Positions 1-22,200 of a stretch of DNA of 64,000 bases are shown piece by piece. Under the pieces are notes generated by a model. The model saw only the letters and a list, made by a program, of their open reading frames with translations. It was not told where the DNA came from and ran no database searches. Within the stretch, counting starts at the first letter, position 1. Every line of letters begins with the position of its first letter. This stretch comes from Chondrosia reniformis (taxonomy: Eukaryota > Porifera > Demospongiae > Chondrillida > Chondrillidae): contig OX359190.1 in assembly GCA_947172415.1 (NCBI GenBank), positions 8,990,001 to 9,054,000 of the forward strand, in the 5' to 3' direction. The position numbers and the translations under genes were made by a program.

Positions 1-1898
1 GCTTAGTTATCAATAGAGAAGAATTTAATCAAGGTAAACACATTGCTAGTGGTTCTTGACTTGAACTGGTTTAATCATCATCTCTCCTTATTCAGCCCTT
101 GAGCAAGCAGGTCAACATTTAGAAGATTCTATGATAGCGTGTAATTGCGCTCTGTTACTGGGACTTTTGGCAAGACATGATAGAGTCAGTAGTGTTGTAG
201 CATCTCTACCAGGGATATTAGTCTGTGTTATACCTTTACAGTTGGTGATTTATTGTTGCATGCAAATTTGTATGTTTTTAATCATTATATTGCTTTAATT
301 CTTTATTTACTAATTCATTAATGTTATCTCTTTCGTTTTATGTCTAAAAGTCACTTTCTTTATTCATTCATGCAGGCATATAAGGAAGAAATTAGAAATT
401 GTCTACCATCAAAATCATTTGATGAAATGATAAAGATATTACAAAACTTTCTATCTTTCCTTGACTATGCAGTAAGTTTCTGGATTGTATGAGTACTGTA
501 TATGAACGTAAGTAAAGTTATTTACTACTGAGTAAGACTACGTGAATAACAGCAGGAAAGATCAATCACGAAAATAAAGCTTCATTTCTGCAAACTTTAG
601 TGAGTAATATTGTGTATTCTTGAACTGATGCCAATGTACTCCACCCTCTCCTTGCCTATGCCATCCGGATTTATATAAACCATTCAAACTAGCATGAGCA
701 CAGTTTCTGGCCCAGGCTCCACCAAAGTGATGATGACGGGCACAATGATATCCTAAATTTTCATCGTTGTCAACATCAGGAGTACTGAAAGCCATGCCAT
801 TGCTATATCTCAGTGCATCTCCTGCAGTACCTGTGTACCCACTCACATTCAGTCTGTAGTTAGTGTCAGCAATTCCTACAGAGAAGAAGGAATATTGCGC
901 ATACTTCTTTATTCCATCGAAATCTGCCATGTCTACTCTCAGCTGAACTCTTGCAGTAGCTGCAGTCAAGCAGTGTATGTTTTCCAGTCCAAGCCAAAAC
1001 TCTCTCTTGGGGTTTCCAAAGCCAGCGACGTAATCACTCCAACCTCTGTTAAAGTTTTCACTTCCATCTCTTCTTCTTTGAAAAACTGTCCACTGTCCAT
1101 TCATGTCACAATAGACCTTTACACGTCCACAACCAGCATCTATCGTGTAGACTCCAGATTTGGTACATCCATTTTGATATACTTCTTGACAGTTGCGAGG
1201 CAGATCATCAGGACCTGGAATATAGGACAGATTTTGTTTGAGCTACGTACAGTGTAGTTTCACCTTTTAAACTATTAGTTAGTTAGTGAGTACTTTGAAT
1301 TTGTGCCCTTACATGATTCTGCAGTCCATATAAGGACTGTAATGGTGATAATCAGTGAAAGGATTTCTCTTCTGCTACGCATCTTCAATCCTTGTGATTT
1401 CTGTGGTGCTCTGTGTCCACTTCGGTGATCCTTTTATAGTCATTGGTTTTGTAAAGTTTATGGCTCACTTGCTGAGTTAGCAATTATTAATTTTAAGGAG
1501 GTTTTTTAAATGTATAGTCCAATTTGAGCTGTCAACACACTCACGTGCAACCCACTTCACCCACTTGGTGAAAATGCTTTACTTGTATAAACAGGAGGTA
1601 ATTGGTACAAGAAATAACAAAATTTAGAGAATATCACTGAAAATTTGCAATAAACATGCTTAATTGGTAATTTAAAATACCTTTTAACATATACGTACGT
1701 TATGTAGTAGATTACATTACAAAATTCTCAGTAAATTTATACATTTGTAACTGTATGTATGTATTATATAACGTACATCTTTCCTGAATGTAGAAATTAG
1801 GTAGCAAGTCAGGTACACAGACAGTTCAATCAATAGTCGGTTTCCTTAAAGAAGAAAATGTTCAACAACAGAAATCAGTTTCTTCCTTAGAAAGCTGA
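1..1898 (+). CDS. WAPL: WAPL-like 3' module, unit 1 (5' partial)
   Basis: Partial 3' end of a WAPL-like gene. WAPL is the nuclear cohesin-release factor, and this stretch is the end of its C-terminal helical WAPL domain. Visible exons: B 1-33 (end of exon), C 96-184, D 376-471, E 1794-1898 with stop TGA. Exon C reads ALEQAGQHLEDS and CALLLGLL, matching the vertebrate ALQHAGKHMED and TALLLG block; exon D reads LQNFLSFL, matching LKKFLSFM. The D donor is a perfect GTAAGT in phase 0 and the E acceptor is also phase 0. Exon E (35 codons with stop) aligns without gaps to the last helix of WAPL. The 3' end of exon C is uncertain: 184 is chosen for length, later GT sites are possible. No disabling change is seen in the visible part. 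This unit may be the true end of the intact WAPL gene. Confidence 0.72.
562..1382 (-). CDS. Secreted fibrinogen-related domain protein, copy 1
   Basis: Two exons on the - strand: 1382-1313 (signal peptide, 23 residues plus one base) and 1214-562; total 240 residues. The intron (1312-1215) begins GTAAGG and ends ATATTCCAG. Residues 1-23 are basic then hydrophobic (MRSRREILSLIITITVLIW), a typical secretion signal. The rest is one fibrinogen-related domain as in ficolins and tachylectins: SGVYTI, VYCDMNGQWTVFQRR, REFWLGLENIH, YRLNVSGYTGTAGDA, calcium motif DVDND (about 170-174), a disulfide pair (about C181/C195), LNGLY, and C-terminal EMKLYFRD. There is no collagen or coiled-coil tail, so it is a minimal soluble lectin-like protein. 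It lies wholly inside the last intron of WAPL unit 1, on the opposite strand. Binding of acetylated sugars is the family expectation, not shown here. Confidence 0.9.
1431..1446 (-). promoter_or_regulatory. TATA and CCAAT boxes of fibrinogen-related copy 1
   Basis: On the - strand TATAAAAG (1438-1431) lies about 49 bases upstream of the ATG at 1382, with a CCAAT pentamer (1446-1442) just upstream. The spacing implies a 5' leader of about 20 bases. The same arrangement recurs in the other copies, which supports independent transcription of the nested gene. Confidence 0.65.
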
Positions 1899-3722
1899 AC
1901 AGATACAGTTACTATCTCAAATGCTTATGATTTTAGCAAAACCTAATGCATGGACAGCATATGTATATATATGTATTTCCTTTAGATCAACTTTCACTTA
2001 ATATTATACTTTTAATAATAACACAATAAGTAACTGATTTAGTGTACATGTCATACACAGGTGTCAAAAATAACAAATTTATTATATACGTACATTGCAC
2101 ATTAATATAGCTGTACATATACTGTATACTTACAACACATTCTCGAAGAGGCTGAGTGCATGTATAATCGATACACCGCAAAGTGACATTGTATAACTGT
2201 TATACAGTCCTCCCCCATGCAGGTTTTTCTTGCATTTTTGCAGGTAACTCAAACTTATAGGCTATATATAACTAGATATTCCACAAGTACAATAATTAGT
2301 ACATTGAATACAACTTACGCTTGCTCATGATCACTATATCTTCTGGTTTTGCAGGGGTTAACCCTTCTAATCAACCTGACTGAACACTCCCCCATTGAGA
2401 GGGGTGCCTTTAGAAAACCCTGGTTTGGGTGCTCTGAGAGAGATGACAAGGGAAGTCTGTCCTTAAGCAATACTTAGACTCTTCCTCCTTCACTATGAAG
2501 CCTCCGACCAAGTGGACATCAGTTTACCTAAAATGATGGAACGCCCAACAGACACACCCACACAATCTATACCACTTACACCAGAACCAGTTGGGGTGGG
2601 TGTGTCTACAACACCAACTGCAACTGGCCACGCCCAGCCTGAGCAGGATCCCACTGCCCCACCCCCATCAGTACCAGCGAAGGAGGAGCAAAGCAGGTCT
2701 CAACCAGAGGCCAAGTTCAGCTTGGATGAGAGTATTGGTATGAAGTGTGCAGCCAGACCTCTTCTTGGTGCCTGCCATTTTTATGACCTTTGTACTCTTG
2801 TATCAGTCCCCATTAGGCTCTCTTGTTGCACAGTATTCTCCATTTATACATATACGTATGTACCTCATTGATTTATTATAGGCATATGAGATACGTATAT
2901 CCTATGAACAATATATCCATATACGTTTATATATGTACATGTACGTTGTATATATCTCATTTTTTACCAAAACACCAAACCCATATTAGATCAACAGACA
3001 AACGACATACATTTATGAATATAGTTTTGTAAATCCTAGTATGTTATAGTACATTTTTGTCATATGGTTTAACTGTCTACTTACTCTTAGAATTTTTGAG
3101 TGATGAAGAGGAAGATCCTTCAATTAGTGCACATGAGTAGAGTATAGCAGATTTATCAACTAGCTTAGTTATCAATAGAGAAGAATTTAATCAAGGTAAG
3201 CAAGCACATTGCTAGTGGTTCCTGACTTGAACTGGTTTAATCATCATCTCTCCTTATTCAGCCCTTGAGCAAGCAGGTCAACATTTAGAAGATTCTATGA
3301 TAGCGTGTAATTGCGCTCTGTTACTGGGACTTTTGGCAAGACATGATAGAGTCAGTAGTACTGTTGTAGCATCTCTACCAGAGATATTAGTCTGTGTTAT
3401 ACCTTTACAGTGATATTAGTGCTTTACAGTTGGTGATTTATTGTTGCATGGAAATTTTGTATGTTTTTAATCATTATATTGCTTTAATTCTTTATTTACT
3501 AATTCATTAATGTCATCTCTTTAGTCCTATGTCTAAAAGTCACTTTCTTTTTTCATTCATATAAGGAAGAAATTAGAAATTGATGAAATGATAAAGATAT
3601 TACAAAACTTTCTATCTTTCCTTGACTATGCAGTAAGTTTCTGGATTGTATGAGTACTGTATATGAACGTAAATAAAGTTATTTACTACTAAGTAAGACT
3701 ACGTAAATAACAGCAGGCAAGA

Positions 3723-4539
3723 TCAATCACGAAAATAAAGCTTCATTTCTGCAAACTTTAGTGAGTACAATGGGGTATTCTTGAAGTAATACCAATGTAC
3801 TCCACCCTGTACTTGACTATGCCATCCGGATTTATATAAACCATTCAAATTAGCATGAGCACAGCTTCTGGTCCAGGCTCCACCAAAGTGAAACTGATGG
3901 GCACAGTGATATGAACTTACATCGTTATCAACATCAGGAGTACTGAAAGCTATGCCATTACTGTATCTCAGTGCATCTCCTGCAGTACCGTGTACCCACT
4001 CACATTCAGTCTGTAGTTAGTGTCAGCATTTCCGACAGAGAAGAAGGAATATTGCGCGTACTTCTTTACCCCATCAAAATCTGCCATGTCTACTCTCAGC
4101 TGAACTCTTGCAGTAGCTGCAGTCAAGCAGTGTATGTTTTCCAGTCCAAGCCAAAACTCTCTCTTGGGGTTTCCAAAGCCAGCAACGTAATCACTCCAAC
4201 CTCTGTTAAAGTTTTCACTTCCATCTCTTCTTCTTTGAAAAACTGTCCACTGTCCATTCATGTCACAATAGACCTTTACACGTCCACAACCAGCATCTAT
4301 CGTGTAGACTCCAGATTTGGTACATCCATTTTGATAAACTTCTTGACAGTTGCGAGGCAGATTATCAGGACCTGGAATATGGGACAGATTTTGTTTGAGC
4401 TATGTACAGTGTAGTTTCACCTTTTAAACTATTAGTTAGTTAGTAAGTACTTTGAATATGCACCCTTACATGATGCTGCAGTCCATATAAGGACTGTAAT
4501 GGTGATAACCAGTGAAGGAATTTCTCTTCTGCTACGCAT
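3723..4539 (-). pseudogene. Fibrinogen-related copy 2, single-base frameshift
   Basis: Exon 1 4539-4470 (signal peptide) and exon 2 4371-3723. Exon 2 is 649 bases, one fewer than the 650 of copies 3-5: a C is missing near 3987-3989, in the codons for GYTGTAGDA. Both halves are otherwise open, and the downstream half keeps all domain landmarks with its own pocket variant (DVDNDVSSYHCAHQFH, then SCAHANLNG). The break is therefore recent or a sequencing error. If real, translation is lost before the calcium site and the ligand pocket. TATA box, splice signals and signal peptide are intact. Confidence 0.8.
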
Positions 4540-4587
4540 CTTCAATCCTTGTGATTTCTGTGGTGCTCTGTGTCCACTTCGGTGATC

Positions 4588-4603
4588 CTTTTATAGTCAT
4601 TGG
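4588..4603 (-). promoter_or_regulatory. TATA and CCAAT boxes of fibrinogen-related copy 2
   Basis: TATAAAAG at 4595-4588 and CCAAT at 4603-4599 on the - strand, at the same distance from the ATG (4539) as in copy 1. The promoter is intact although the coding frame is broken. Confidence 0.6.
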
Positions 4604-5479
4604 TTTTGTAAAGTTTATGGCTCACTTGCTGAGTTAGCAATTATTAATTTTAAGGAGGTTTTTTAAATGTATAGTCCAATTTGATTAGTCAACACTCTCA
4701 TGTGCAACCCACTTCACCCACTTGGTGAAAATGCTTTACTTGTGTAAACAGGAGGTAATTGGTACAAGAAATAACAAAATTTACAGAATATCACTAAAAA
4801 TTTGCAATAAACATGCTTAATTGGTAATTTAAAATACCTTTTAACATATACATACGTTACGTAGTACATTACAAAATTCTCAGTAAATTTATACATTTAT
4901 AACTGTATGTATTATATAACGTACATCTTTCCTCAATGTAGAAATTAGGTAGCAAGTCAGGTACACAGACAGTTCAATCAATAGTCGGTTTCCTTAAAGA
5001 AGAGAATGTTCAACAACAGAAATCAGTTTCTTCCTTAGAAAGCTGAACAGATACAGTGACTATTTCAAATTCTTATGATTTTAGCAAAACCTAATGCATG
5101 GACAGCATATGTATATGTATTTCTTTTAGATCAACTTTCACTTAATATTATACTTTTAATAATAATGCGATAAGTAACTGATTTAATGTACATGTCTTAC
5201 ACAGGTGTCAAGGGATAACAAATTTATTATGTTGCACATTAATATAGCTGTACATATACTGTATACTTCCAATTACAAGACATTCGCGAAGAGGGTGAGT
5301 GCATGTATAATCAATACACCGCAAAGTGACATTGTGTAACTGTTATACAGTCCTCCCCTAGGCTTTTCTTGCACTTTTGCAGGTAACTCAAGCTTATAGG
5401 CTATATATAACTACAGATATTCCACAAGTACAATAATTAGTACATTGAATACTGCTCACTATATCTTCTGGTTTTGCAG

Positions 5480-8119
5480 GGGTTAACCCTTTTAATCAAC
5501 CTGACTGAACACTCCCCCATCAAGAGGGGTGCCTTCAGAAAACCCTGGTTTGGGTGCTCTGAGAGAGATGACAAAGGGAAGTCTGTCCTTAAGCAAATAC
5601 TTAGACTCTTCCTCTTCCACTATGAAGCCTCCGACCAAGTGGACATCAGTTTACCTAAAATGATGGAACGCCCAACAGACACACCCACAAAATTTATACC
5701 ACTTACACCAGAACCAGTTGGGGTGGGTGTATCTACAACACCAGCTGCAACTGGCCACGCCCAGCCTGAGCAGGATCCCACTGCCCCATCCCCATCAGTG
5801 CCAGTGAAAGAGGAGCAAAGCAGGTCTCAACCTGAGGCCAAGTTCAGCTTGGATGAGAGTATTGGTATGAAGTGTGCAGCCAGACCTCTTCTTGGTGCCT
5901 GCCATTTTTATGACCTTTGTACTCTTGTATCAGTCCCCATTAGGCTCTCTTGTTGCACAGTATTCTCCATTTATACATAATACCTCATTAATTTATTATA
6001 GGCATATGAGATACGTATATCCTATGAACAATATATCCAGATATATATATGTACGTACATGCACGTTGTATATATCTCATTTTTTACCAAAACACCAACC
6101 CCATATTAGATCAACCGTTTTTACAAACATACGACATGCATTTATGAATATAGTTTTGTAAATCCTAGTATGTTATAGTACATTTTTGTCATATGGTTTA
6201 ACTGTCTACTTACTCTTAGAATTTTTGAGTGATGAAGAGGAAGATCCTTCAATTAGTGTACATGAGCAGAGTATAGCAGATTTATCAACTAGCTTAGTTA
6301 TCAATAGAGAAGAATTTAATCAAGGTAAGCACATTGCTCGTGGTTCTTGACTTGAACTGGTTTAATCATCATCTCTCCTTATTCAGCCCTTGAGCAAGCA
6401 GGTCAACATTTAGAAGATTCTATGATAGCGTGTAATTGCGCTCTGTTACTGGGACTTTTGGCAAGACATAATCGGGTCAGTAGTACTGTTGTAGCATCTC
6501 TACCAGGGATATTAGTCTGTGTTATACCTTTACAGTTGGTGATTTATTGTTGCATGCAAATTTGTATGTTTTTAATCATTATATCACTTTTTTCATTCAT
6601 GCAGGCATATAAGGAAGAAATTAGAAATTGTCTACCATCAAAATCATTTGATGAAATGATAAAGATATTACAAAACTTTCTCTCTTTCCTTGACTATGCA
6701 GTAAGTTTCTGGATTGTATGAGTACTGTATATGAACGTAAGTAAAGTTATTTACTACTGAGTAAGACTAAGTGAATAACAGCAGGAAAGATCAATCACGA
6801 AAATAAAGCTTCATTTCTGCAAACTTTAGTGAGTAAACGTATGTATTCTTGAACGAATGCCAATGTACTCCACGCTCTGGTTGATCATGCCATCCGGATT
6901 TATATAAACCATTCAAACTAGCACTAGCACAGTTTCTGGTCCAGGCTCCACCAAAGTGAATTTCCAGTGCACAGTGACGTGAATCTTTATCGTGGTCAAC
7001 ATCAGGAGTACTGAAAGCTATGCCATTACTGTATCTCAGTGCATCTCCTGCAGTACCCGTGTACCCACTCACATTCAGTCTGTAGTTAGTGTCAGCATTT
7101 CCGACAGAGAAGAAGGAATATTGTGCATACTTCTTTACCCCATCAAAATCTGCCATGTCTACTCTCAGCTGAACTCTTGCAGTAGCTGCAGTCAAGCAGT
7201 GTATGTTTTCCAGTCCAAGCCAAAACTCTCTCTTGGGGTTTCCAAAGCCAGCGACGTAATCACTCCAACCTCTGTTAAAGTTTTCACTTCCATCTCTTCT
7301 TCTTTGAAAAACTGTCCACTGTCCATTCATGTCACAATAGACTTTTACAGGTCCACAACCAGCATCTATCGTGTGGACTCCAGATTTGGTACATCCATTT
7401 TGATAAACTTCTTGACAGTTGCGAGGCAGATTATCAGGACCTGGAATATAGGACAGATTTTGTTTGAGCTATGTACAGTGTAGTTTCACCTTTTAAACTA
7501 TTAGTTAGTTAGTGAGTACTTTGAATTTGTGCTCTTACATGATGCTGCAGTCCATATAACGACTGTAATGGTGACAACCAGTGAAGGGATTTCTCTTTTG
7601 CTACGCATCTTTAATCCTTTTGATTTCTGTGGTACTCTGTGTCTCCTTCGGTGATCCTTTTATAGTCATTGATTTTGTAAAGTTTATGGCTCACTTGCTG
7701 AGTTAGCAACTATTAATTTTAAGGAGGTTTTTTAAATGTATAGTCCAATTTGATCAGTCAACACTCTCATGTGCAACCCACTTCACCCACTTGGTGAAAA
7801 TGCTTTACTTGTGTAAACAGGAGGTAATTGGTACAAGAAATAACAAAATTTACAGAATATCACTAAAAATTTGCAATAAACATGCTTAATTGGTAATTTA
7901 AAATACCTTTTAACATATATGTACGTTACGTAGTACATTTCAAAATTCTCAGTAAATTTATACATTTGTAACTCTATGTATGTATTATATAACGTACATC
8001 TTTCCTCAATGTAGAAATTAGGTAGCAAGTCAGGTACACAGACAGTTCAATCAATAGTCGGTTTCCTTAAAGAAGAGAATGTTCAACAACAGAAATCAGT
8101 TTCTTCCTTAGAAAGCTGA
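5480..8119 (+). CDS. WAPL: WAPL-like 3' module, unit 3 (open)
   Basis: Exons: A 5480-5864 (385 bases, phase 0 in, phase 1 out), B 6220-6324, C 6387-6475 (3' end uncertain), D 6605-6700, E 8015-8119 with stop. All are open and the phases agree, giving roughly 259 residues: LTLLINLTEHSP, a proline/threonine-rich low-complexity insert, an acidic stretch FLSDEEEDPS, then ALEQAGQHLEDS, LQNFLSFL and the last helix TVQSIVGFLKEE. Vertebrate WAPL has LLINLVEYS, an acidic linker and ALQHAGKHMED in this order. No 5' exons of WAPL are present, so it is expressed only if an upstream WAPL transcript splices into exon A; otherwise it is a fragment. Confidence 0.72.
6791..7608 (-). CDS. Secreted fibrinogen-related domain protein, copy 3
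   Basis: Exon 1 7608-7539 (signal peptide) and exon 2 7440-6791; 239 residues. The intron begins GTAAGA. One codon shorter than copies 1 and 6, in the loop after the calcium motif. The pocket variant reads DVDHDKDSRHCALEIHFGG, then NCASASLNG, WHDQPERGVHWHSFKNTYV. It has glycine-proline-charged sequence where copies 1, 2 and 6 have HRQGEG or HSQVQG type sequence. The scaffold half is nearly the same as in copies 1 and 2. It is nested in the last intron of WAPL unit 3, and has a TATA box but no CCAAT pentamer. Confidence 0.9.
7657..7664 (-). promoter_or_regulatory. TATA box of fibrinogen-related copy 3
   Basis: TATAAAAG on the - strand, 49 bases upstream of the ATG at 7608. The CCAAT pentamer seen in copies 1, 2, 5 and 6 is changed here (CAATGA context with T for G in the + strand ATTGG). 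Confidence 0.6.
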
Positions 8120-9956
8120 ACAGATACAGTGACTATCTCAAATGCTTATGATTTTAGCAAAACCTAATGCATGGACAGCATACGTATATGTATTTCTTTT
8201 AGATCAACTTTCACTTAATATTGTACTTTTAATAATAATGCGATAAGTAACTGATTTAATGTACATGTCTTACACAGGTGTCAAAAGATAACAAATTTAT
8301 TATATTGCACATTAATATAGCTGTACATATACTGTAAACGTCCAATTACAACACATTCTCGAAGAGGGTGAGTGCATGTATAATCGATACACCACAAAGT
8401 GACATGGTATAACTGGTATATATACAGTCCTCCCCCAGGCTTTTCTTGCACTTTTGCAGGTAACTCAAGCTTTTAGGCTATATAACTTCAGATATACCAC
8501 AAGTACAATAATTAGTATACATTGAATACAACTTACTCTTGTCACTATATCTTCTGGTTTTGCAGGGGTTTACCCTTCTAATCAACCTGACTGAACACTC
8601 CCCCATCGAGAGGGGTGCCTTCAGAAAACCCTGGTTTGGGTGCTCTGAGAGAGATGACAAAGGGAAGTCTGTCCTTAAGCAAATACTTAGACTCTTCCTC
8701 CTTCACTATGAAGCCTCCGACCAAGTGGACATCAGTTTACCTAAAATGATGGAACGCCCAACAGACACACCCACAAAATCTATACCACTTACACCAGAAC
8801 CGGTTGGGGTGGGTGTATCTACAACACCAGCTGCAACTGGCCACGCCCAGCCTGAGCAGGATCAAACTGCCCCACCCCCATCAGTGCCAGCGAAAGAGGA
8901 GCAAAGCAGGTCTCAACCTGAGGCCAAGTTCAGCTTGGATGAGAGTATTGGTATGAAGTGTGCAGCCAGACCTCTTCTTGGTGCCTGCCATTTTTATGAC
9001 CTTTGTACTCTTGTATCAGTCCCCATTAGGCTCTCTTGTTGCACTGTATTCTTCATTTATACATATACGTATGTACCTCATTGATTTATTATAGGCATAT
9101 GAGATACGTATATCCTATGAACAATATATCCATATACGTATATATATATATGTACATGTGCGTTGTATATTTCTCATTTTTTACCAAAGCACCAACCCCA
9201 TATTAGATCAACCGTTTTTACAAACATACGACATACATTTATGAATATAGTTTTGTAAATTCTAGTATGTTATAGTACATTTTTGTCATATGGTTTAACT
9301 GTCTATTTACTCTTAGAATTTTTGAGTGATGAAGAGGAAGATCCTTCAATTAGTGCACATGAGCAGAGTATAGCAGATTTATCAACTAGCTTAGTTATAA
9401 ATAGAGAAGAATTTAATCAAGGTAAGCACATTGCTAGTGGTTCTTGACTTTAACTGGTTTAATCATCATCTCTCCTTATTCAGCCCTTGAGCAAGCAGGT
9501 CAACATTTAGAAGATTCTATGATAGCGTGTAATTGCGCTCTGTTACTGGGACTTTTGGCAAGACATAATAGAGTCAGTAGTACTGTTGTAGCATCTCTAC
9601 CAGGGATATTAGTCTGTGTTATATGTACCTTTACAGTTGGTGATTTATTGTTGCATGCAAATTTGTATGTTTTTAATCATTATATTGCTTTAATTCTTTA
9701 TTTACTAATTCATTAATGTTATCTCTTTAGTCCTATGTCTAAAAGTCACTTTCTTTATTCATTCATGCAGGCATATAAAGAAGAAATTTGAAATTGTCTA
9801 CCATCAAAATCATTTGATGAAATGATAAAGATATTACAAAACTTTCTCTCTTTCCTTGACTATGCAGTAAGTTTCTGGATTGTATGAGTACTGTATATGA
9901 ACGTAAGTAAAGTTATTTACTACTGAGTAAGACTAAGTGAATAACAGCAGGAAAGA

Positions 9957-10772
9957 TCAATCACGAAAATAAAGCTTCATTTCTGCAAACTTTAGTGAGT
10001 AAAAGTATGTATTCTTGAACTGATGCCAATGTACTCCACGCTCTGGTTGATCATGCCATCCGGATTTATATAAACCATTCAAACTAGCTGCAGCACAGTT
10101 TCTGGTCCAGGCTCCACCAAAGTGAATTTCCAGTGCACAGTGACGTGAATCTTCATCATGGTCAACATCAGGAGTACTGAAAGACAAGCCATTACTATAT
10201 CCCATTGCATCTCCTGCAGTACCCGTGTACCCTGTCACATTCAGTCTGTAGTTAGTGTCAGCATTTCCGACAGAGAAGAAGGAATATTGCGCGTACTTCT
10301 TTACTCCATCAAAATCTGCCATGTCTACTCTCAGCTGAACTCTTGCAGTAGCTGCAGTCAAGCAGTGTATGTTTTCCAGTCCAAGCCAAAACTCTCTCTT
10401 GGGGTTTCCAAAGCCAGCGACGTAATCACTCCAACCTCTGTTAAAGTTTTCACTTCCATCTCTTCTTCTTTGAAAAACTGTCCACTGTCCATTCATGTCA
10501 CAATAGACTTTTACAGGTCCACAACCAGCATCTATCGTGTGGACTCCAGATTTGGTACATCCATTTTGATATACTTCTTGACAGTTGCGAGGCAGATCAT
10601 CTGGACCTGGAATAGGACAGATTTTGTTTGAGCTACGTACAGTGTAGTTTCACCTTTTAAACTATTAGTTAGTTAGTGAGTACTTTGAATATGCGCCCTT
10701 ACATGATGCTGCAGTCCATATAAGGACTGTAATGGTGATAACCAGTGAAGGGATTTCTCGTCTGCTACACAT
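9957..10772 (-). CDS. Secreted fibrinogen-related domain protein, copy 4
   Basis: Exon 1 10772-10703 and exon 2 10606-9957; 239 residues. The acceptor is CCTATTCCAG, lacking the TA pair found in copies 1, 3 and 6; the difference is intronic and does not touch the frame. The signal peptide starts MCSRREIPSLV. Pocket variant: DAMGYSNGLSFS, DVDHDEDSRHCALEIH, NCAAASLNG, GVHWHQFKNTYF. It is closest to copies 3 and 5. It is nested in WAPL unit 4 and has its own TATA box. Its upstream DNA differs from that of copies 1-3 and 6 and contains a 48-base minisatellite. Confidence 0.9.
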
Positions 10773-10820
10773 CTTCAATCCTTGTGATTTCTGTGGTGCT
10801 CTGTGTCTCCTTTGGTGATC

Positions 10821-10828
10821 CTTTTATA
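10821..10828 (-). promoter_or_regulatory. TATA box of fibrinogen-related copy 4
   Basis: TATAAAAG on the - strand 49 bases upstream of the ATG at 10772; the CCAAT pentamer is lost here as in copy 3. Confidence 0.6.
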
Positions 10829-10983
10829 GTCATTGATTATTGTATATGGCTCACACAGTTACTTGCTGAGTTAGCAATTAATTATATTATTATTGCTACC
10901 CATTCCACCCACTTTGTGGTTAAAATGCTTTACTTGTGTAAACAGTATAAAGAAACAAAGCAATTGTTTTTAAAATGTATAGC

Positions 10984-11175
10984 CCAATCCTTTGATCAGT
11001 CAGTGACACTCTGTCTCATTTCCTACCCATTCCAATCCTTTGATCAGTCAGTGACACTCTGTCCCATTTCCTACCCATTCCAATCCTTTGATCAGTCAGT
11101 GACACTCTGTCCCATTTCCTACCCATTCTAATCCTTTGATCAGTCAGTGATACTCTGTCCCATTTCCTACCCATT
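10984..11175. repeat. 48-base minisatellite, four copies
   Basis: Units begin at 10984, 11032, 11080 and 11128 with an exact 48-base period; each begins CCAATCC or CTAATCC and contains TTTGATCAGTCAGTGACAC. It lies in the segment upstream of fibrinogen-related copy 4; a shorter version is in unit 5 near 14576-14660. Reading frames across it have no support as genes. Confidence 0.9.
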
Positions 11176-13409
11176 CCACCCACTTTGTTGTAAAATATAC
11201 TTTATTTGTGTAAACAGTAGGTTTTAATTGGTAATTAAAAACAATTTATTCACATACAGTACATTATATCATTTCTCAGTAAGCCCCTTCAGGATTACTT
11301 CCTTTAAGGATGTACTGATAAAATCAATAATAAAGCTATGAGTTAACTTATTTCCATTGCTAAAAATATCCAACACTTTGTCCTTAAAATAATGTGTTTT
11401 TGCTTGTGTCAGCTGCAGTTTAATTAATACATTTATAACTGTATGTATGTATTATATAACGTACATCTTTCCTCAATGTAGAAATTAGGTAGCAAGTCAG
11501 GTACACAGACAGTTCAATCAATAGTCGGTTTCCTTAAAGAAGAGAATGTTCAACAACAGAAATCAGTTTCTTCCTTAGAAAGCTGAACAGATACAGTTAC
11601 TATCTCAAATGCTTATGATTTTAGCAAAACCTAATGCATGGACAGCATATGTATATGTATTTCTTTTAGATCAACTTTCACTTAATATTGTACTTTTAAT
11701 AATAACGCAATAAGTAACTGATTTAATGTACATGTCTTACACAGGTGTCAAAAGATAACAAATTTATTATATTGCACATTAATATAGCTGTACATATACT
11801 GTATACTTCCAATTACAAGACATTCTCGAAGAGGGTGAGTGCATGTATAATCGATACACCGCAAAGTGACATTGTATAACTGTTATACAGTCCTCCCCTA
11901 GGCTTTTCTTACACTTTTGCAGGTAACTCAAGCTAATAGGCTATATATAACTAGATATTCCACAAGTACAATAATTAGTACATTGAATACAACTTACTCT
12001 TGCCACTATATCTTCTGGTTTTGCAGGGGTTAACCCTTCTAATCAACCTGACTGAACACTCCCCCATTGAGAGGGGTGCCTTTAGAAAACCCTAGTTTGG
12101 GCGCTCTGAGAGAGATGACAAAGGGAAGTCTGTCCTTAAGCAAATACTCAGACTCTTCCTCTTCCACTATGAAGCCTCCGACCAAGTGGACATCAGTTTA
12201 CCTAAAATGATGGAACGCCCAACAGACACACCCACAAAATCTATACCACTTACACCAGAACCAGTTGGGGTGGGTGTGTCTACAACACCAGCTGCAACTG
12301 GCCACACCCAGCCTGAGCAGGATCCCACTGCCCCACCCCCACCAGTGCCAGCGAAAGAGGAGCAAAGCAGGTCTCAACCTGAGGCCAAGTTCAGCTTGGA
12401 TGAGAGTATTGGTATGAAGTGTGCAGCCAGACCTCTTCTTGGTGCCTGCCATTTTTATGACCTTTGTACTCTTGTATCAGTCCCCATTAGGCTCTCTTGT
12501 TACACAGTATTCTCCATTTATACATATACGTATGTACCTCATTGATTTATTATAGGCATATGAGATACGTATATCCTATGAACAATATATCCATATACGT
12601 ATATATGTGTTCATGTACGTTGTATATATCTCATTTTTTACCAAAGCACCAACCCCATATTAAATCAACCATTTTTACAAACATATGAAATACATTTATG
12701 AATATAGTTTTGTAAATCCTAGTATGTTATAGTACATTTTTGTCATATGGTTTACCTCTCTACTTACTCTTAGAATTTTTGAGTGATGAAGAGGAAGATC
12801 CTTCAATTAGTGCACATGAGCAGAGTATAGCAGATTTATCAACTAGCTTAGTTATCAATAGAGAAGAATTTAATCAAGGTAAGCACATAGCTAGTGGTTC
12901 TTGACTTGAACTGGTTTAATCATCATCTCTCCTTATTCAGCCCTTGAGCAAGCAGGTCAACATTTAGAAGATTCTATGATAGCGTGTAATTGCGCTCTGT
13001 TACTGGGACTTTTGGTAAGACATGATAGGGTCAGTAGTACTGTTGTAGCATCTCTACCAGAGATATTAGTCTGTGTTATACCTTTACAGTTGGTGATTTA
13101 TTGTTGCATGCAAATTTTGTATGTTTTTAATCATTATATTGCTTTAATTCTTTATTTACTAATTCATTAATGTTATCTCTTTAGTTCTATGTCTAAAAGT
13201 CACTTTCTTTATTCATTCATGCAGGCATATAAGAAGAAATTAGAAATTGTCTACTATCAAAATCATTTGATGAAATGATAAAGATATTACAAAACTTTCT
13301 CTCTTTCCTTGACTATGCAGTAAGTTTCTGGATTGTATGAGTACTGTATATGAACGTAAGTAAAGTTATTTACTATTGAGTAAGACTACGTGAATAACAG
13401 CAGGAAAGA

Positions 13410-14229
13410 TCAATCACGAAAATAAAGCTTCATTTCTGCAAACTTTAGTGAATATAATCGTGTATTCTTGAACTGATACCAATGTACTCCACGCTCTGGT
13501 TGATCATGCCATCCGGATTTATATAAACCATTCAAACTAGCTGCAGCACAGTTTCTGGTCCAGGCTCCACCAAAGTGAATTTCCAGTGCACAGTGACGTG
13601 AACCTCCATCATTGTCAATATCAGGAGTACTGAAAGCTATGCCACTGCTATATCTCAGTGCATCTCCTGCAGTACCCGTGTACCCAGTCACATTCAGTCT
13701 GTAGTTAGTGTCAGCATTTCCGACAGAGAAGAAGGAATATTGTGCGTACTTCTTTACCCCATCAAAATCTGCCATGTCTACTCTCAGCTGCACTCTTGCA
13801 GTAGCTGCAGTCAAGCAGTGTATGTTTTCCAGTCCAAGCCAAAACTCTCTCTTGGGGTTTCCAAAGCCAGCGACGTAATCACTCCAGCCTCTGTTAAAGT
13901 TTTCACTTCCATCTCTTCTCCTTTGAAAAACTGTCCACTGTCCATTCATGTCACAATAGACCTTTACACGTCCACAACCAGCATCTATCGTGTAGACTCC
14001 AGATTTGGTACATCCATTTTGATAAACTTCTTGACAGTTGCGAGGCAGATCATCTGGACCTGGAATAGGACAGATTTTGTTTGAGCTACGTACAGTGTAC
14101 ATAGTTTCACCTTTTAAACTATCATTTAGTTAGTGAGTACTTTGAATATGCGCCCTTACATGATGCTGCAGTCCATATAAGGACTGTAATGGTGATAACC
14201 AGTGAAGGAATTTCTCTTCTGCTATGCAT
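13410..14229 (-). CDS. Secreted fibrinogen-related domain protein, copy 5
   Basis: Exon 1 14229-14160 and exon 2 14059-13410; 239 residues. In this copy the frame happens to stay open through the intron to an upstream ATG (14102), giving a 230-residue single-exon reading without a signal peptide; I reject that start because the spliced form is shared by all six copies. The signal peptide begins MHSRREIPSLV. Pocket variant: DIDNDGGSRHCALEIH, NCAAASLNG, WHDQPERGVHWYQFKNTRL. It is nested inside WAPL unit 5, whose own frame is dead, while this gene is intact. Confidence 0.9.
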
Positions 14230-14277
14230 CTTCAATCCTTGTGATTTCTGTGGTACTCTGTGTCTCCTTCAGTGATC

Positions 14278-14293
14278 CTTTTATAGTCATTGG
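14278..14293 (-). promoter_or_regulatory. TATA and CCAAT boxes of fibrinogen-related copy 5
   Basis: TATAAAAG at 14285-14278 and CCAAT at 14293-14289 on the - strand, upstream of the ATG at 14229. Confidence 0.6.
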
Positions 14294-14428
14294 TTATTGT
14301 ATATGGCTCACACAATTACTTGCTGAGTTAGCAATTAATTATATTATTATTGCTACCCATTCCACCCACTTTGTGGTAAAAATGTTTTACTTGTGTAAAC
14401 AGTGGGTAATAAAAAAAAACAAAGCAAT

Positions 14429-14554
14429 GGTGCCCCTATATTGTTTTCAGAAATTATGTTAACATGGCTTCCGGTTAACCGGATATCTAAGAACCAGCAT
14501 GTACATAGTTCAAGTTTGCATGGGACCCCACGAGTTTCTTAAACTCGAAATACT
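14429..14554. repeat. Insertion found only in unit 5
   Basis: Compared with unit 4, about 126 bases are inserted between CAAAGCAAT and TTGTTTTTAAA. It contains a perfect 14-base palindrome TCCGGTTAACCGGA (14470-14483) and a seven-base stem CGAGTTT/AAACTCG (14531-14547). It has no coding capacity. It may be a small non-autonomous element; no clear target duplication was seen. Confidence 0.55.
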
Positions 14555-15609
14555 TGTTTTTAAATTTTATAGTCTAATCCTTTGATCAGTCGACACTCTG
14601 TCCCTTTTGCTATCCATTCCAATCCTTTGATCAGTCAGTGACACTCTGTCCACTTTGTCCACTTTGTTGTAAAATATGCTTTATTTGTGTAAACAGTAGG
14701 TTTTAATTGGTAATTAAAGAGACTTTATTCACCTACAGTACATTTTATATGATTTCTCAGTAAGCCCCTTCAGGGTTATTTCCTTTAAAAAGATGTACTG
14801 ATAAAATCAATAATAAAGCTATGAGTTAAAAATTTAAAGGTAGCCTATAATCAGTTTTTTAAGCGCAACAATTCTAATTGCAATCTACCTGTATGTAGTT
14901 ATCTCTTTTATCATTCAAACAATCTGTACTATATAAATAACTCATCTCCATTACTAAAAAATCCAACACTTTGTCCTTAAAATATATGTTTTTGCTTGTG
15001 TCAGCTTCAGTTTAATTTATACATTTTTAACTGTATGTATGTATTATATAACGTACATCTTTCTTCAATGTAGAAATTAGGTAGCAAGTCAGGTACACAG
15101 ACAGTTCAATCAATAGTCGGTTTCCTTAAAGAAGAGAATGTTCAACAACAGAAATCAGTTTCTTCCTTAGAAAGCTGAACAGATACAGTGACTATCTCAA
15201 ATGCTTATGATTTTAGCAAAACCTAATGCATGGACAGCATACGTATATGTATTTCTTTTAGATCAACTTTCACTTAATATTATACTTTTAATAATAACGC
15301 AATAAGTAACTGATTTAATGCACATGTCTTACACAGGTGTCAAAAAATAATAAATTTATTACATTGCACATTAATATAGCTGTACATATACTGTATACTT
15401 CCAATTACAACACCTTCTCGAAGAGGGTGAGTGCATGTATAATCGATTCACCGCAAAGTGACATTGTATAACTGTTATACAGTCCTCCCCTAGGCTTTTC
15501 TTGCACTTTTGCAGGTAACTCAAGCTTATAGGCTAGATATTCCACAAGTATAATAATTAGTACATTGAATACAACTTACTCTTGCTCACTATATCTTCTG
15601 GTTTTGCAG

Positions 15610-18332
15610 GGGTTAATCCTTCTAATCAACCTGACTGAACACTCCCCCATCGAGAGGGGTGCCTTCAGAAAACCCTGGTTTGGGTGCTCTGAGAGAGATG
15701 ACAAAGGGAAATCTGTCCTAAAGCAAATACTTAGACTCTTCCTCCTCCACTATGAAGCCTCCGACCAAGTGGACATCAGTTTACCTAAAATGATGGAACG
15801 CCCAACAGACACACCCACAAAATCTATACCACTTACACCAGAACCAGTTGGGGTGGGTGTGTCTACAACACCAGCTGCAACTGGCCACGCCCAGCCTGAG
15901 CAGGATCCCACTGCCCCACCCCCACCAGTGGCAGCGAAAGAGGAGCAAAGCAGGTCTCAACCTGAGGCCAAGTTCAGCTTGGATGAGAGTATTGGTATGA
16001 AGTGTGCAGCCAGACCTCTTCTTGGTGCCTGCCATTTTTATGACCTTTGTACTCTTGTATCAGTCCCCATTAGGCTCTCTTGTTGCACAGTATTCTCCAT
16101 TTATACATATATGTATGTACCTCATTGATTTATTATAGGCATATGAGATATGTATATCCTATGAACAATATATCCATATACGTATATATATGTACATGTA
16201 CGTTGTATATATCTCATTTTTTACCAAAACACCAACCCCATATCAGATCAACCGTTTTTACAAACATACGAAATACATTTATTAATATAGTTTTGTAAAT
16301 CCTAGTATGTTATAGTACATTTTTGTCATATGGTTTAACTGTCTACTTACTCTTATATAGAATTTTTAAGTGATGAAGAGGAAGATCCTTCAATTAGTGC
16401 ACATGAGCAGAGTATAGCAGATTTATCAACTAGCCTAGTTATCAATAGAGAAGAATTTAATCAAGGTAAGCACATTGCTAGTGGTTCTTGACTTGAACTG
16501 GTTTAATCATCATCTCTCCTTATTCAGCCCTTGAGCAAGCAGGTCAACATTTAGAAGATTCTATGATAGCGTGTAATTGCGCTCTGTTACTGGGACTTTT
16601 GGCAAGACATGATAGAGTCAGTAGTACTGTTGTAGCATCTCTACCAGGGATATTAGTCTGTGTTATACCTTTACAGTTGGTGATTTATTGTTGCATGCAA
16701 ATTTGTATGTTTTTAATCATTATATTGCTTTAATTCTTTATTTACTAATTCATTAATGTTATCTCTTTAGTCCTATGTCTAAAAGTCACTTTCTTTATTC
16801 ATTCATGCAGGCATATAAGGAAGAAATTAGAAATTGTCTACCATCAAAATCATTTGATGAAATGATAAAGATATTACAAAACTTTCTCTCTTTCCTTGAC
16901 TATGCAGTAAGTTTCTGGATTGTATGAGTACTGTATATGAACGTAAGTAAAGTTATTTACTACTGAGTAAGACTACGTGAATAACAGCAGGAAAGATCAA
17001 TCACGAAAATAAAGCTTCATTTCTGCAAACTTTAGTGAGTAATAGTGTGTATTCTTGAAGTAATACCAATGTACTCCACCCTCTACTTGACTATGCCATC
17101 CGGATTTATATAAACCATTCAAATTAGCAAAAGCACAGTTTCTGGCCCAGGCTCCACCAAAGTGACGATGACGGGCACAGTGATATCCTGAAAATCCATC
17201 GTTGTCAACATCAGGAGTACTGAAAGCCATGCCACTACTATATCCCATTGCATCTCCTGCAGTACCCGTGTACCCACTCACATTCAGTGTGTAATTAGTG
17301 TCAGCATTTCCGACCGAGAAGAAGGAATATTGCGCATACTTCTTTACTCCATCAAAATCTGCCATGTCTACTCTCAGCTGAACTCTTGCAGTAGCTGCAG
17401 TCAAGCAGTGTATGTTTTCCAGTCCAAGCCAAAACTCTCTCTTGGGGTTTCCAAAGCCAGCGACGTAATCACTCCAGCCTCTGTTAAAGTTTTCACTTCC
17501 ATCTCTTCTCCTTTGAAAAACTGTCCACTGTCCATTCATGTCACAATAGACCTTTACACGTCCACAACCAGCATCTATCGTGTAGACTCCAGATTTGGTA
17601 CATCCATTTTGATAAACTTCTTGACAGTTGCGAGGCAGATCATCTGGACCTGGAATATAGGACAGATTTTGTTTGAGCTACGTGCAGTGTAGTTTCACCT
17701 TTTAAACTATCATTTAGTTAGTGAGTACTTTGAATATACGCCCTTACATGATGCTGCAGTCCATATAAGGACTGTAATGGTGACAACCAGTGAAGGGATT
17801 TCTCTTCTGCTACGCATCTTCAATCCTTGTGATTTCTGTGGTGCTCTGTGTCTCCTTCAGTGATCCTTTTATAGTCATTGGTTTTGAAAGGTTATGGCTC
17901 ACTTGCTGAATTAGCAATTATTGATACTAAGGAGGTTTTTTAAATGTATAGTGCAATTATTCCTTTGAGCAGTCAACACTCTCATGTGCAACCCACTTCA
18001 CCCACTTGGTGAAAATGCTTTACTTGTGTAAACAGGAGGTAATTGGTACAAGAAATAACAAAATTTACAGAATATCACTGAAAATTTGCATGCTTAATTG
18101 GTAATTTAAAATACCTTTTAACATATACGTACGTTATGTAATAGATTACATTACAAAATTCTCAGTAAATTTATACATTTTTAACTGTATGTATGTATTA
18201 TATAACGTACATCTTTCTTCAATGTAGAAATTAGGTAGCAAGTCAGGTACACAGACAGTTCAATCAATAGTCGGTTTCCTTAAAGAAGAGAATGTTCAAC
18301 AACAGAAATCAGTTTCTTCCTTAGAAAGCTGA
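15610..18332 (+). CDS. WAPL: WAPL-like 3' module, unit 6 (open, last in array)
   Basis: Exons: A 15610-15994, B 16361-16465, C 16528-16616 (3' end uncertain), D 16811-16906, E 18228-18332 with stop TGA. All are open and in phase, as in unit 3. As the last copy it keeps what may be the ancestral WAPL 3' flank. A canonical AATAAA lies at 18523-18528, about 190 bases past the stop, inside the small inverted segment that ends the array. Exon A encodes LTLLINLTEHSP then a Pro/Thr-rich insert; exon E encodes TVQSIVGFLKEE. Confidence 0.75.
16997..17817 (-). CDS. Secreted fibrinogen-related domain protein, copy 6
   Basis: Exon 1 17817-17748 and exon 2 17649-16997; 240 residues, the same length class as copy 1. 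Pocket variant: YTLNVSGY, DAMGYSSGMAFS, DVDNDGFSGYHCARHRH, NCAFANLNG, WHSQVEGGVHWYYFKNTHY. It resembles copy 1 in the cysteine loop (HCARH) but copy 2 in the later loops (HSQV, HWYYFKNT), a mosaic that suggests gene conversion. It is nested in the last intron of WAPL unit 6. Confidence 0.9.
17866..17881 (-). promoter_or_regulatory. TATA and CCAAT boxes of fibrinogen-related copy 6
   Basis: TATAAAAG at 17873-17866 and CCAAT at 17881-17877 on the - strand, upstream of the ATG at 17817. Confidence 0.6.
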
Positions 18333-18483
18333 ACAGATACAGTGACTATCTCAAATGCTTATGATTTTAGCAAAACCTAATGCATGGACAGCATACGTAT
18401 ATGTATTTCTTTTAGATCAACTTTCACTTAATATTATACTTCTAATAATAACACAATAAGTAACTGATTTAATGCACATGTCT

Positions 18484-18556
18484 TGTAATTGGAATACAGC
18501 TACGTATATTAATGTGCAATTTAATAAATTTGTTATCTTCTGACACCTGTGTATGA
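18484..18556. repeat. Inverted scar at the 3' border of the array
   Basis: Homology with the other units ends after CACATGTCTT. The next about 73 bases are the reverse complement of the DNA found at the same place in other units (compare 5200-5280): TGTAATTGGA, then TTAATGTGCAAT, then ACACCTGTGT. Beyond 18556 the sequence is unique. Confidence 0.75.
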
Positions 18557-19242: not shown

Positions 19243-22200
19243 ATGGAAAACTCTACATTAGGAGCACTCATCAATACAAGTGGAGACTCTGATGATTTTT
19301 CAGATTGGAGACTGAGCCAAGATATCAACCCAATCGCTCTTGGACTATTTTGGGCTCTTTTAAACATCTATATATTGGTTGTCAATGCTTTTATATGCAT
19401 ATATTCTGTAGTCTACATATATAAAAAGAAGACCAGCTATATATCTCAGACCTATACCACCCAGTCGTCCCTGCTCCTCTTCAATCTGTCGCTGACCTAT
19501 CTAGTCCAAGGCCTCTTTGCTCTACCCTTTACTGTTATTGCCACCTTCAGCGGAGAATGGCTGGTCTACCAACCGAAATCTTCCAAGGAAGCAACCTGTA
19601 CTTTCTCTGGTTTTATCTTAAATTGGACTTACACCATTGCCCTCCACACGATAGCAGTCATTTCAATTGAGCGCTTCCTGTTTGTCACCAACCCCCACAA
19701 GCATAGGACCAAATTCACTACCAAAGTAAGGGAGACTTTACTACTTTTGTTTTGTATATATATATATATGTGTGTAATATACAAACTATTATATATATTG
19801 TATATAATAATAGTTATATGTGTATATATATGATACTGTAAAGGCTCATTGCTGCATGGAGGGTACTGGTTATAGAAATTAATTGAATTGTTCATTGTGT
19901 ATTCCAGTCACTGTGATTATGCTCAATAACTATCTATAATCATGTATATACGTATATTTGAAAAGGGAGTTTATATAATGCATGCACATTATCAATGCAT
20001 TGGCTATGATATTTATATACGTACGTATACTGATAATCAGTGGATTTCACCATGGTTTGCTATTTGATGCATTATTCATTTTCAGTGATTGTGAATATGG
20101 CATGTATACATACGTATGTTGTGCCTTAATCAAATATCCAATGAAATATACATAAATACGTAATCTGTCACAGGTTTACCCATTTAGGACTTGGTGCAAT
20201 AATCTTTTTAAGTACAAATACAATAAATGAAATGTTTTGTATCTAATTGTATATACTTCTAATTTGATTGACCTGTTCAAGCTCAACCATATATGTAATA
20301 ATATATTCAATTATAAATCCAGAATCATGTCAAAGAGTTTCCATATAATAGTATACGTACTATATGTATATAGATAATTTAATCTCTTTAAATGAAGTAA
20401 TTATATATATATACCATTCAATGTTGTTAATAAGGTGTACCTTATTTGCATATATATAAACAGCTAACTATGTTTTAAATTACTGGACCAGTATTATAAT
20501 TTTATTTTCACTTAAAATATTATGAATATCATTAAAGTTTGCTAAAAATGGCAGGTCAACCCTATATATGCTACCTTAACATGTGTTTACTGTAAATTCT
20601 TCTTTATACTGTATATATACAGGTTATAATAGGTCTCATACTATTCACCTGGCTATACCCCGCCCTGCTTGCAGCCACGCCTTATTTGTTTGGAGGTTAC
20701 ACATTCTTTTCAAAAGGAGGGATATGCATAACTCCAATGGTAAGCCATTTACAGGTATACATACATGTACACATATATTATGTGGATGGAGGAGGGAGAA
20801 GGAGGAAGGAGGAAGGAGGAGGAGGCGGGAGGAGGAAGGAGGGAGGAGGGAGAAGGGAGGAAGGAGGAGGGAGGAGGGAGGAGGGAGGAGGGAGGAGGGA
20901 GGAGGGAGGAGGGAGGAGGGAGGAGGGAGGAGGGAGGAGGGAGGAGGGTGGAGGGTGGAGGGAGGAGGGAGGAGGGAGGAGGGAGGAGGGAGGAGGGAGG
21001 AGGGTGGAGGGTGGAGGGAGGAGAGAGGAGGGAGGAAGGTGAATATGAGTGAAACACTTTCGATATTAATCTACATATACAATAGGAGAGTCAAAACCTA
21101 ATTACTAGAAATGATTATATCCAAATTTAATACATACATATAACTGTACGCATGTACATATATACTTTTATGTAATTCATTTATGATATACTGTTGTCAT
21201 CCTATTATTCTTCACACATGTACACATATATAGGCAGGCATTGGGCTCTACTGGTTGGCAGTGTTTGTTGTGTATGCCACAATTCCTATTGTGGTTGTCA
21301 TGGTAATGATTGTTGCAACGTGTGTATTTGCGAGAAGATTTGCAGTCAAGTTACGGAGAAAGGTTGGGAATGGTCATACAGCTGTCTACAGGACACCTTC
21401 TGGTCCAACTTCCAGTCAGAACAGTGGAAATGGGAATTTACATCAACCTACAGATAGCAATCAGAAAATGTGCTGCTCCGATTGTTGCTGCATGCGTAAG
21501 TGTTCTTTAGTAATTCCTCAAGGGGAAATGCATAGGAATTATATACTAGTTGTCCATCTATTATTTAATATATAATATTCAATTTTCAACATCTTTTACA
21601 GTTGCTTCCTATTTCTCCTCCATGTCACAGTTTTAAAATGGTTTTAATTCCCTCTTCCTCAGAAGACCTTGAGTTCTTGGTTGATTTTGTTAAAATTTGA
21701 ATTGCTAATTCATCATACATCATAATCATAATATGTTATATTCACTTATGTGTCTGATCAATTATTTTGGTTCTTTTATATAATTCTCTAGCTGGAAAAA
21801 AGTGTTTTGCTCTTTTTGGAGTGTTTGGTTCTCTGGTAGTCATTTACAGCATTCAGTTACTGACAGGCAGTGTTTCTACTATTGTAACTCTGTTTAAAGG
21901 ACCTGCTTTTCAACCAGATGTTTTACAGGGAGCCTTCACCTACCTAACCATATCATTACCAGCTATATCTGGAGCAGTACAAGTTTGTTAAAAAATTATG
22001 TACATGTAGACTGTCTGTATAAATTAGAAAGTCCTAGATGTTGATTTGTCTATATATAATCCCAGAATGTGTATATACTTATACAATTGTAGGTTCACTT
22101 TATGTATATGAGAATACATTATGCATATACGTAGAGTTGCAAGATATAGTTACACTATCATAGTTACCTTTGTGGCAATGCAACTGACAGGGGCAACAGT

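Follow-up and report, generated by a model that had tools for sequence, protein, structure and literature searches.

Fibrinogen-related genes nested antisense in nine tandem copies of a WAPL 3' end in the sponge Chondrosia reniformis

The array and its host gene

We analysed a 64,000-nucleotide stretch of chromosome 2 of the demosponge Chondrosia reniformis (assembly GCA_947172415.1, contig OX359190.1, here C2, positions 8990001-9054000; this whole stretch is called the window), the left end of which holds part of a tandem array. The array is made of copies of the 3' end of WAPL, the gene of a cohesin regulator, and between WAPL exons D and E of its units, that is in the last intron, sits an antisense two-exon gene for a protein with a fibrinogen-related domain (FReD). 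A tblastn search with exon peptides over the window and 50 kb upstream found nine tandem units, U1 to U9, each of approximately 3.0-3.6 kb, with U4-U9 inside or partly inside the window and U1-U3 upstream of it. A first-pass annotation of the window had proposed a six-fold multiplication of this module; the duplication is real, but the count is nine and six units merely touch the window. It had also pointed upstream for the WAPL 5' exons and further units, and both are there, the body exons from C2:8971158 onwards together with the three extra units. Exon A starts at C2:8979579, 8983047, 8986090, 8989182 and 8992355 in U1-U5 and at C2:8995480, 8998566, 9002027 and 9005610 in U6-U9, and array similarity spans approximately C2:8979493 to 9008484 (window 18484).

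In an intact unit WAPL exons A, B, C, D and E measure 385, 105, 89, 96 and 105 nt, with AG and GT at their borders. In window coordinates, WAPL lying on the plus strand and the FReD genes on the minus strand throughout, U4 (1..1898) begins before the window at C2:8989096, with exon A and part of exon B outside it; the end of exon B (1-33), C (96-184), D (376-471) and E (1794-1898) follow, the FReD gene lies at 562-1382 with its TATA box at 1425-1438, and both frames are intact. The tail frame of U5 (2269..5393; A 2355-2737, B 3091-3195, C 3262-3350, E 4942-5046) is broken, its exon D being a remnant without an acceptor (3557-3632), and the frame of its FReD gene (3726-4539) breaks after 157 residues. 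U6 (5394..8479) is intact in both its tail (A 5480-5864, B 6220-6324, C 6387-6475, D 6605-6700, E 8015-8119) and its FReD gene (6791-7608). U7 (8480..11940) carries an in-frame stop in exon D (9771-9866), next to exons A (8566-8950), B (9317-9421), C (9484-9572) and E (11482-11586), and an intact FReD gene (9957-10772). The tail of U8 (11941..15523) has an in-frame stop in exon A (12027-12411) and a frameshift in exon D (13225-13319), with B at 12774-12878, C at 12941-13029 and E at 15074-15178; its FReD gene (13410-14229) is intact. The last unit, U9 (15524..18484), is intact in its tail (A 15610-15994, B 16361-16465, C 16528-16616, D 16811-16906, E 18228-18332) and in its FReD gene (16997-17817). 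Upstream of the window, U2 lacks a recognisable exon D and has also lost the 3' part of its FReD gene.

The sequence between units (window approximately 5291-5401) holds a repeat for which, with 40 out of 103 candidates scored, 36 matches were listed elsewhere than in the array. Since none of the listed matches lies at either outer array edge, we did not adopt this dispersed repeat as the cause of the duplication. At the right array end, window 18478-18556 is a short inverted piece of unit-junction sequence (80.9% over 89 bp).

An array of this kind could in principle be produced in assembly, if just one or two true units had been strung out in tandem from their different haplotypes or reads, and our data are indeed those of one assembly and its primary haplotype. 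Against this, the closest pair of units still differs by at least 3.2% overall (ungapped columns) and unit lengths are unequal. The assembly, described as 117.37 Mb in 14 chromosomes plus the mitochondrion with a chromosome 2 of 10.29 Mb, has HiFi coverage of ~70x and a primary quality value (QV) of 69.8, and its yield of 10.31 Gb in 0.80 million reads corresponds to ~12.9 kb per read, roughly four units (PMC12181767). We regard an artefact as very improbable indeed.

The WAPL body lies directly upstream of U1; it starts with MAERKPRKKG... at C2:8971158 and extends as far as an exon whose end is near C2:8979249. Joined to a tail, it matched Pfam WAPL at 66.7 bits (cut-off 24.6) over residues 1-349 of 596, a match confined to the body and some twelve residues at the start of the tail. 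The tail matched human WAPL (4k6j), the sole PDB sequence listed at E <= 0.1, with E 9.9e-6 for a query that still contained about a dozen intron residues. Genome-wide searches, in which the best candidates only were scored, covered 117,379,552 bases in 15 contigs (C2, 10,288,994 bases); 45 of 45 tail matches fell in the array and eight of eight body matches just upstream of it, so that a single WAPL body turned up for the nine 3' ends. Scanning all six frames with Pfam WAPL gave no match, and 14 control genomes were equally silent, hence this is no evidence of absence.

The tail frame is intact in four of the nine units (U1, U4, U6 and U9) and broken in U2, U3, U5, U7 and U8. The WAPL identity first annotated is borne out by 4k6j for the tail and by Pfam for the body joined to it. 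GT follows exon D in all eight units where exon D was found and AG precedes exon E in all nine; the predicted joining of exon D to exon E is backed by these splice dinucleotides, by phase and by alignment to human WAPL. In the WAPL body, an intron minisatellite at C2:8977205-8977547 (L012 7205-7547) repeats the acceptor-like motif CTCTCTTGCAG immediately 5' of an exon, and a second tandem repeat lies at L012 ~1520-1870.

The nested gene is uniform in structure. Its first exon of 70 nt and intron of 96-100 nt were found in all nine units, as was the TATA motif TATAAAAGGATCAC 56 nt upstream of the ATG; intact copies have a second exon of 650-653 nt and a product of 239-240 residues. A TATA box and intron of its own, as previously proposed, are thus general features, but the gene is not complete in U2 and U5, and the frame is intact in seven of nine copies (five of six within the window). 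The U4 protein matched Pfam Fibrinogen_C at 200 bits over residues 29-236 and no other Pfam family, with no immunoglobulin superfamily (IgSF) domain and no collagen-like region; the 28 residues preceding the domain include an N-terminus that, being hydrophobic as judged by eye, is probably a signal peptide, which would make the protein a secreted one.

Divergence, exchange and selection

Divergence is distributed very unevenly along the unit. Nucleotide diversity among the nine units was 1.2-2.9% in WAPL exons A-D, 2.2-3.9% in the intervening introns and 0.4% in exon E; within FReD exon 2 it was 2.7% in the 5' half and 11.2% in the 3' half, and it reached 15% in the stretch from FReD exon 1 to exon E. 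In U6, taken as the example, the diversified 3' half of exon 2 occupies 6791..7080 on the minus strand (~11% between units) and covers the calcium region and the S1 ligand site. The distal promoter region (7720..7943 on the minus strand of U6) exists as two types, one in U4, U5, U6 and U9 and the other in U1, U2, U3, U7 and U8, which are 24-30% apart; the latter type is internally mixed (2-18% between members) in an alignment that is gap-rich there, and the sequence around the TATA box is common to both. The units are also mosaic: the nearest neighbour of U6 is U7 for the lectin 3' half, U5 for the distal promoter and, narrowly, U9 for WAPL exons A-D. A test modelled on the pairwise homoplasy index (PHI) gave p <= 0.001 on 105 gap-free, two-state informative columns, with 53% of informative site pairs incompatible. 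Anatomy, copy number, reading frames, TATA motif, divergence contrast and mosaicism are read directly from the assembled sequence; the insertion event, the signal peptide and secretion, sugar binding, independent transcription, an immune or symbiont role of the lectins and the use of U1 by WAPL are inferred.

The explanation we favour, to which we would give a probability of about 0.7, is that a FReD gene in the last WAPL intron was duplicated in tandem as part of a module whose WAPL parts have been homogenised and whose lectin has been diversified by selection. A lectin gene of two exons, its product having a single FReD and probably being secreted, would have arrived antisense in that intron, and a segment from just 5' of exon A to beyond exon E would have been duplicated tandemly to nine units. 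As only U1 is contiguous with the WAPL body, U1 should supply the WAPL C-terminus, the eight other tails presumably being passengers. Gene conversion or unequal exchange would keep the WAPL-derived parts and the lectin N-terminal half similar among units, selection would diversify the site-carrying half, and distal promoter types would be reshuffled among units. The array would provide a panel of lectins with one scaffold and varied binding surfaces, plausibly discriminating microbes in a symbiont-rich filter feeder.

Evidence for selection on the lectin comes from the seven copies left after excluding the broken U2 and U5. Over FReD columns 24-143 the ratio of nonsynonymous to synonymous differences per site (pN/pS) was 0.10 (confidence interval (CI) 0.04-0.22) at a pS of 0.105. 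Site model M2a was preferred over M1a with twice the log-likelihood difference (2dlnL) at 51.0 (p 8e-12), placing 8.1% of sites in a class with omega 6.9, and ten columns exceeded a posterior of 0.9 (148, 175, 176, 177, 184, 185, 197, 212, 220 and 225). On other trees 2dlnL was 62.0 (C-terminal part), 91.8 (N-terminal part) and 101.5 (star). The models support a positively selected site class in the lectin half predicted to carry the calcium and ligand site. The earlier proposal that duplication of a host 3' end carried along and multiplied a recognition-type gene is accordingly strengthened by signs of diversifying selection in that half, with nine copies in place of six.

Among PDB sequences, FIBCD1 (4m7f) matched the C-terminal part of the U1 lectin best. 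We numbered FIBCD1 as chain index plus 235, after which Cys414, His415, Tyr431, Asp393 and Asp395 fit the expected letters. In FIBCD1, Cys414 N, His415 N and Tyr431 OH are reported to hold the N-acetyl group and His396 to belong to an extended pocket (PMC10825690); calcium is reported to be held by Asp393, Asp395, Ser397 and Asn399 (PMC3908420). Alignment to FIBCD1 placed column 175 at His396, 176 at Ser397, 197 at Thr416 and 212 at Tyr431. At the last position Tyr occurs in U1 only, the other copies having S, G, P, P, P and V, and two further S1 residues are not matched, Tyr405 being replaced by His and His415, in all seven copies, by Ala. By sequence alignment alone, the calcium aspartates and Cys414 (columns 172, 174 and 195) are invariant in seven of seven copies, and column 181, included in the test of the calcium and cysteine-pair columns, was not among the variable ones. 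The 12 columns at named FIBCD1 ligand or calcium residues vary more than the domain average (0.220 vs 0.057, p 0.0005). A fair statement is that variation concentrates in the site-carrying half, including some of the site rim, and that the other half is held.

Several results weigh against our explanation. For the binding-half columns 172-227 pN/pS was 1.37 at a pS of 0.118, and with a CI of 0.73-2.92 an excess of dN over dS is not established for the region as a whole. The M1a and M2a models were home-made and applied to seven sequences, and recombination, which is present here, can inflate site models. Set against the remainder of the binding half, the 12 FIBCD1-named columns showed no significant excess of variability (p 0.15), nor did the four core S1 columns (p 0.39). 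An enrichment of contact residues within this half that had been seen with eight columns was gone (the same p 0.15) once all 12 replaced them, the added four being invariant or structural. Lastly, the U2-U9 tails look constrained, which is unexpected for pure passengers without exchange. The region-wide pN/pS and the result for the named columns are what one might expect if the array had grown by unequal crossing-over alone, neutrally and to no benefit, its diverged lectin half and promoters being old segments that escaped homogenisation; the two dead FReD copies fit such a history, as do promoter types so far apart, since old segments evidently persist. The strong constraint on the N-terminal half at a similar pS (0.105 vs 0.118) nonetheless argues that the genes are under selection, and the site-class model favours omega above 1 on all four trees. 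We therefore think a purely neutral amplification unlikely.

The tails raise a different possibility, namely that they are functional alternative 3' ends of WAPL, the pre-mRNA crossing the array and splicing to different units. Codon models, with codons containing gaps or stops masked, gave omega 0.44 for all nine tails (p 0.0017 vs 1) and 0.42 for U2-U9 (p 0.0012). Fewer sites vary in exons B-D (p 0.001) and exon E (p 0.0007) than in the non-coding parts of the unit, a difference that exon A does not show (p 0.28), and splice dinucleotides are retained in nearly all exons. In exon E two of 105 sites vary, with no amino acid change across the nine copies. Yet five of the nine tails are broken and omega for these five is an equal 0.42 (p 0.012), intact tails would yield near-identical peptides and hence little gain, and mosaicism is a simpler source of constraint. 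Alternative tails thus seem to us quite unlikely, and we read the constraint as concerted evolution with the working copy. Given that exon E is near-invariant though five of nine tails are broken, a role beyond coding is possible, for example in regulating the adjacent lectin promoter.

More speculatively, and as an extension that we hold to be doubtful, WAPL might anchor a generator of lectin diversity, purifying selection on WAPL preserving and homogenising the frame of the module as the nested lectin surface and distal promoter diversify and recombine. As the first unit must supply the WAPL C-terminus, unequal exchange could shrink or reshuffle the array but not delete the locus. Any unit with an intact tail could rotate into first position. 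When WAPL is transcribed across its last intron, this may also dampen or shape the expression of the lectin gene in the first unit.

Sponges host dense microbial communities, and little is known of the molecules by which they distinguish symbionts from food and from pathogens. A compact array with a shared scaffold and differing site-carrying halves offers a ready panel for tests of specificity. The locus also brings a housekeeping gene and a fast-evolving, recognition-type gene of an early-branching animal into one duplication module, in which interleaved sequences are under opposite selection.

Relatives and neighbours in the genome

The seven array lectins formed one clade (support 100/99) in a tree of 36 FReD rows from this genome, drawn from 38 loci after two short ones were dropped and subject to a long-branch warning. 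The 14 best matches outside the array lie on other chromosomes and are 54-62% identical. Counted by piece, FReD matches in the genome number at least 142, and a large cluster of them lies at C6:2.12-2.64 Mb. The retained introns and TATA boxes suggest copying at the DNA level.

We surveyed nesting at three loci (L054-L056) of the five in the nearest dispersed FReD clade. The relative at C13:5402287 (L054, C13:5399501-5405500; also L057) is antisense and probably nested in a minus-strand CAP-Gly gene (82.9 bits), which we take to be CEP350-like and whose likely exons on either side were assigned by eye; the relative has, again by eye, a TATA-like motif, a signal-like first exon and an intron at the same phase as the array genes. 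L055 is not nested and lies downstream of a gene with transketolase domains, presumably PDH E1-beta. With one relative probably nested, one not and one ambiguous, antisense nesting by itself probably does not set the array apart.

Elsewhere, L037 (C6:307459) and L041 (C6:514386) are ficolin-like genes that combine a FReD with a coiled-coil-like part and a short run of Gly-X-Y; the match of this short piece to Pfam Collagen is below cut-off. Just past the array, window 19243-21500 holds a seven-transmembrane (7TM) rhodopsin family gene (52.2 bits) with a purine-rich GGAGGA tandem repeat at approximately 20779-21081 in a likely intron.

Comparison with known systems

The first-pass annotation knew of no description of such a cassette and named mollusc fibrinogen-related proteins (FREPs) and sponge lectin families as the nearest comparisons. 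Among the open-access papers listed we likewise found neither a WAPL-nested lectin nor a WAPL-tail array, which is no proof of absence in print, but a close parallel exists in the human RCCX module. There, in the order STK19-C4-CYP21-TNX, complement C4 is described as multiplied along with TNXA, which lies on the opposite strand and is a truncated copy of part of TNXB, and unequal crossover is at work (PMC8362596). Both systems are tandem modules of an immune-type gene with truncated, opposite-strand copies of a host or neighbouring gene, with exchange between modules. In RCCX as described, the neighbours stand side by side with overlapping ends, whereas the sponge lectin lies wholly inside the last intron of its host; the sponge host is a cohesin regulator, and the units number nine.

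The comparison with mollusc FREPs holds less well. Expanded FReD-type genes in an invertebrate, with products that in the sponge too are probably secreted, are common to both, but Biomphalaria FREPs are described as carrying one or two IgSF domains (PMC7588048), and the 240-residue sponge protein, matching Fibrinogen_C only, is not a strict FREP. Ficolins have a collagen-like region before the FReD, a part that the array protein lacks. By domain and calcium site the array protein is of the tachylectin-5A/FIBCD1 type, its FReD having the calcium aspartates and the Cys401-Cys414 pair in alignment (PMC10825690, PMC3908420); the sponge S1 residues deviate, however, at the Tyr431 position and in His415 to Ala. 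In the sponge Dysidea avara, fibrinogen-domain genes are reported as differentially expressed, some up and some down, after exposure to microbial molecules (PMC6208332), which makes an immune or symbiont role of the array lectins plausible.

For the nesting itself, Drosophila 2mit offers a parallel, being an independent gene that occupies an intron of tim2 in antisense orientation (PMC3786989), but as reported it is a single nested gene and the 3' end of its host is not multiplied. Nesting and modular duplication are thus each precedented; the array is a new variation in uniting the two, with a diversified lectin placed inside the terminal intron of a cohesin-regulator gene.

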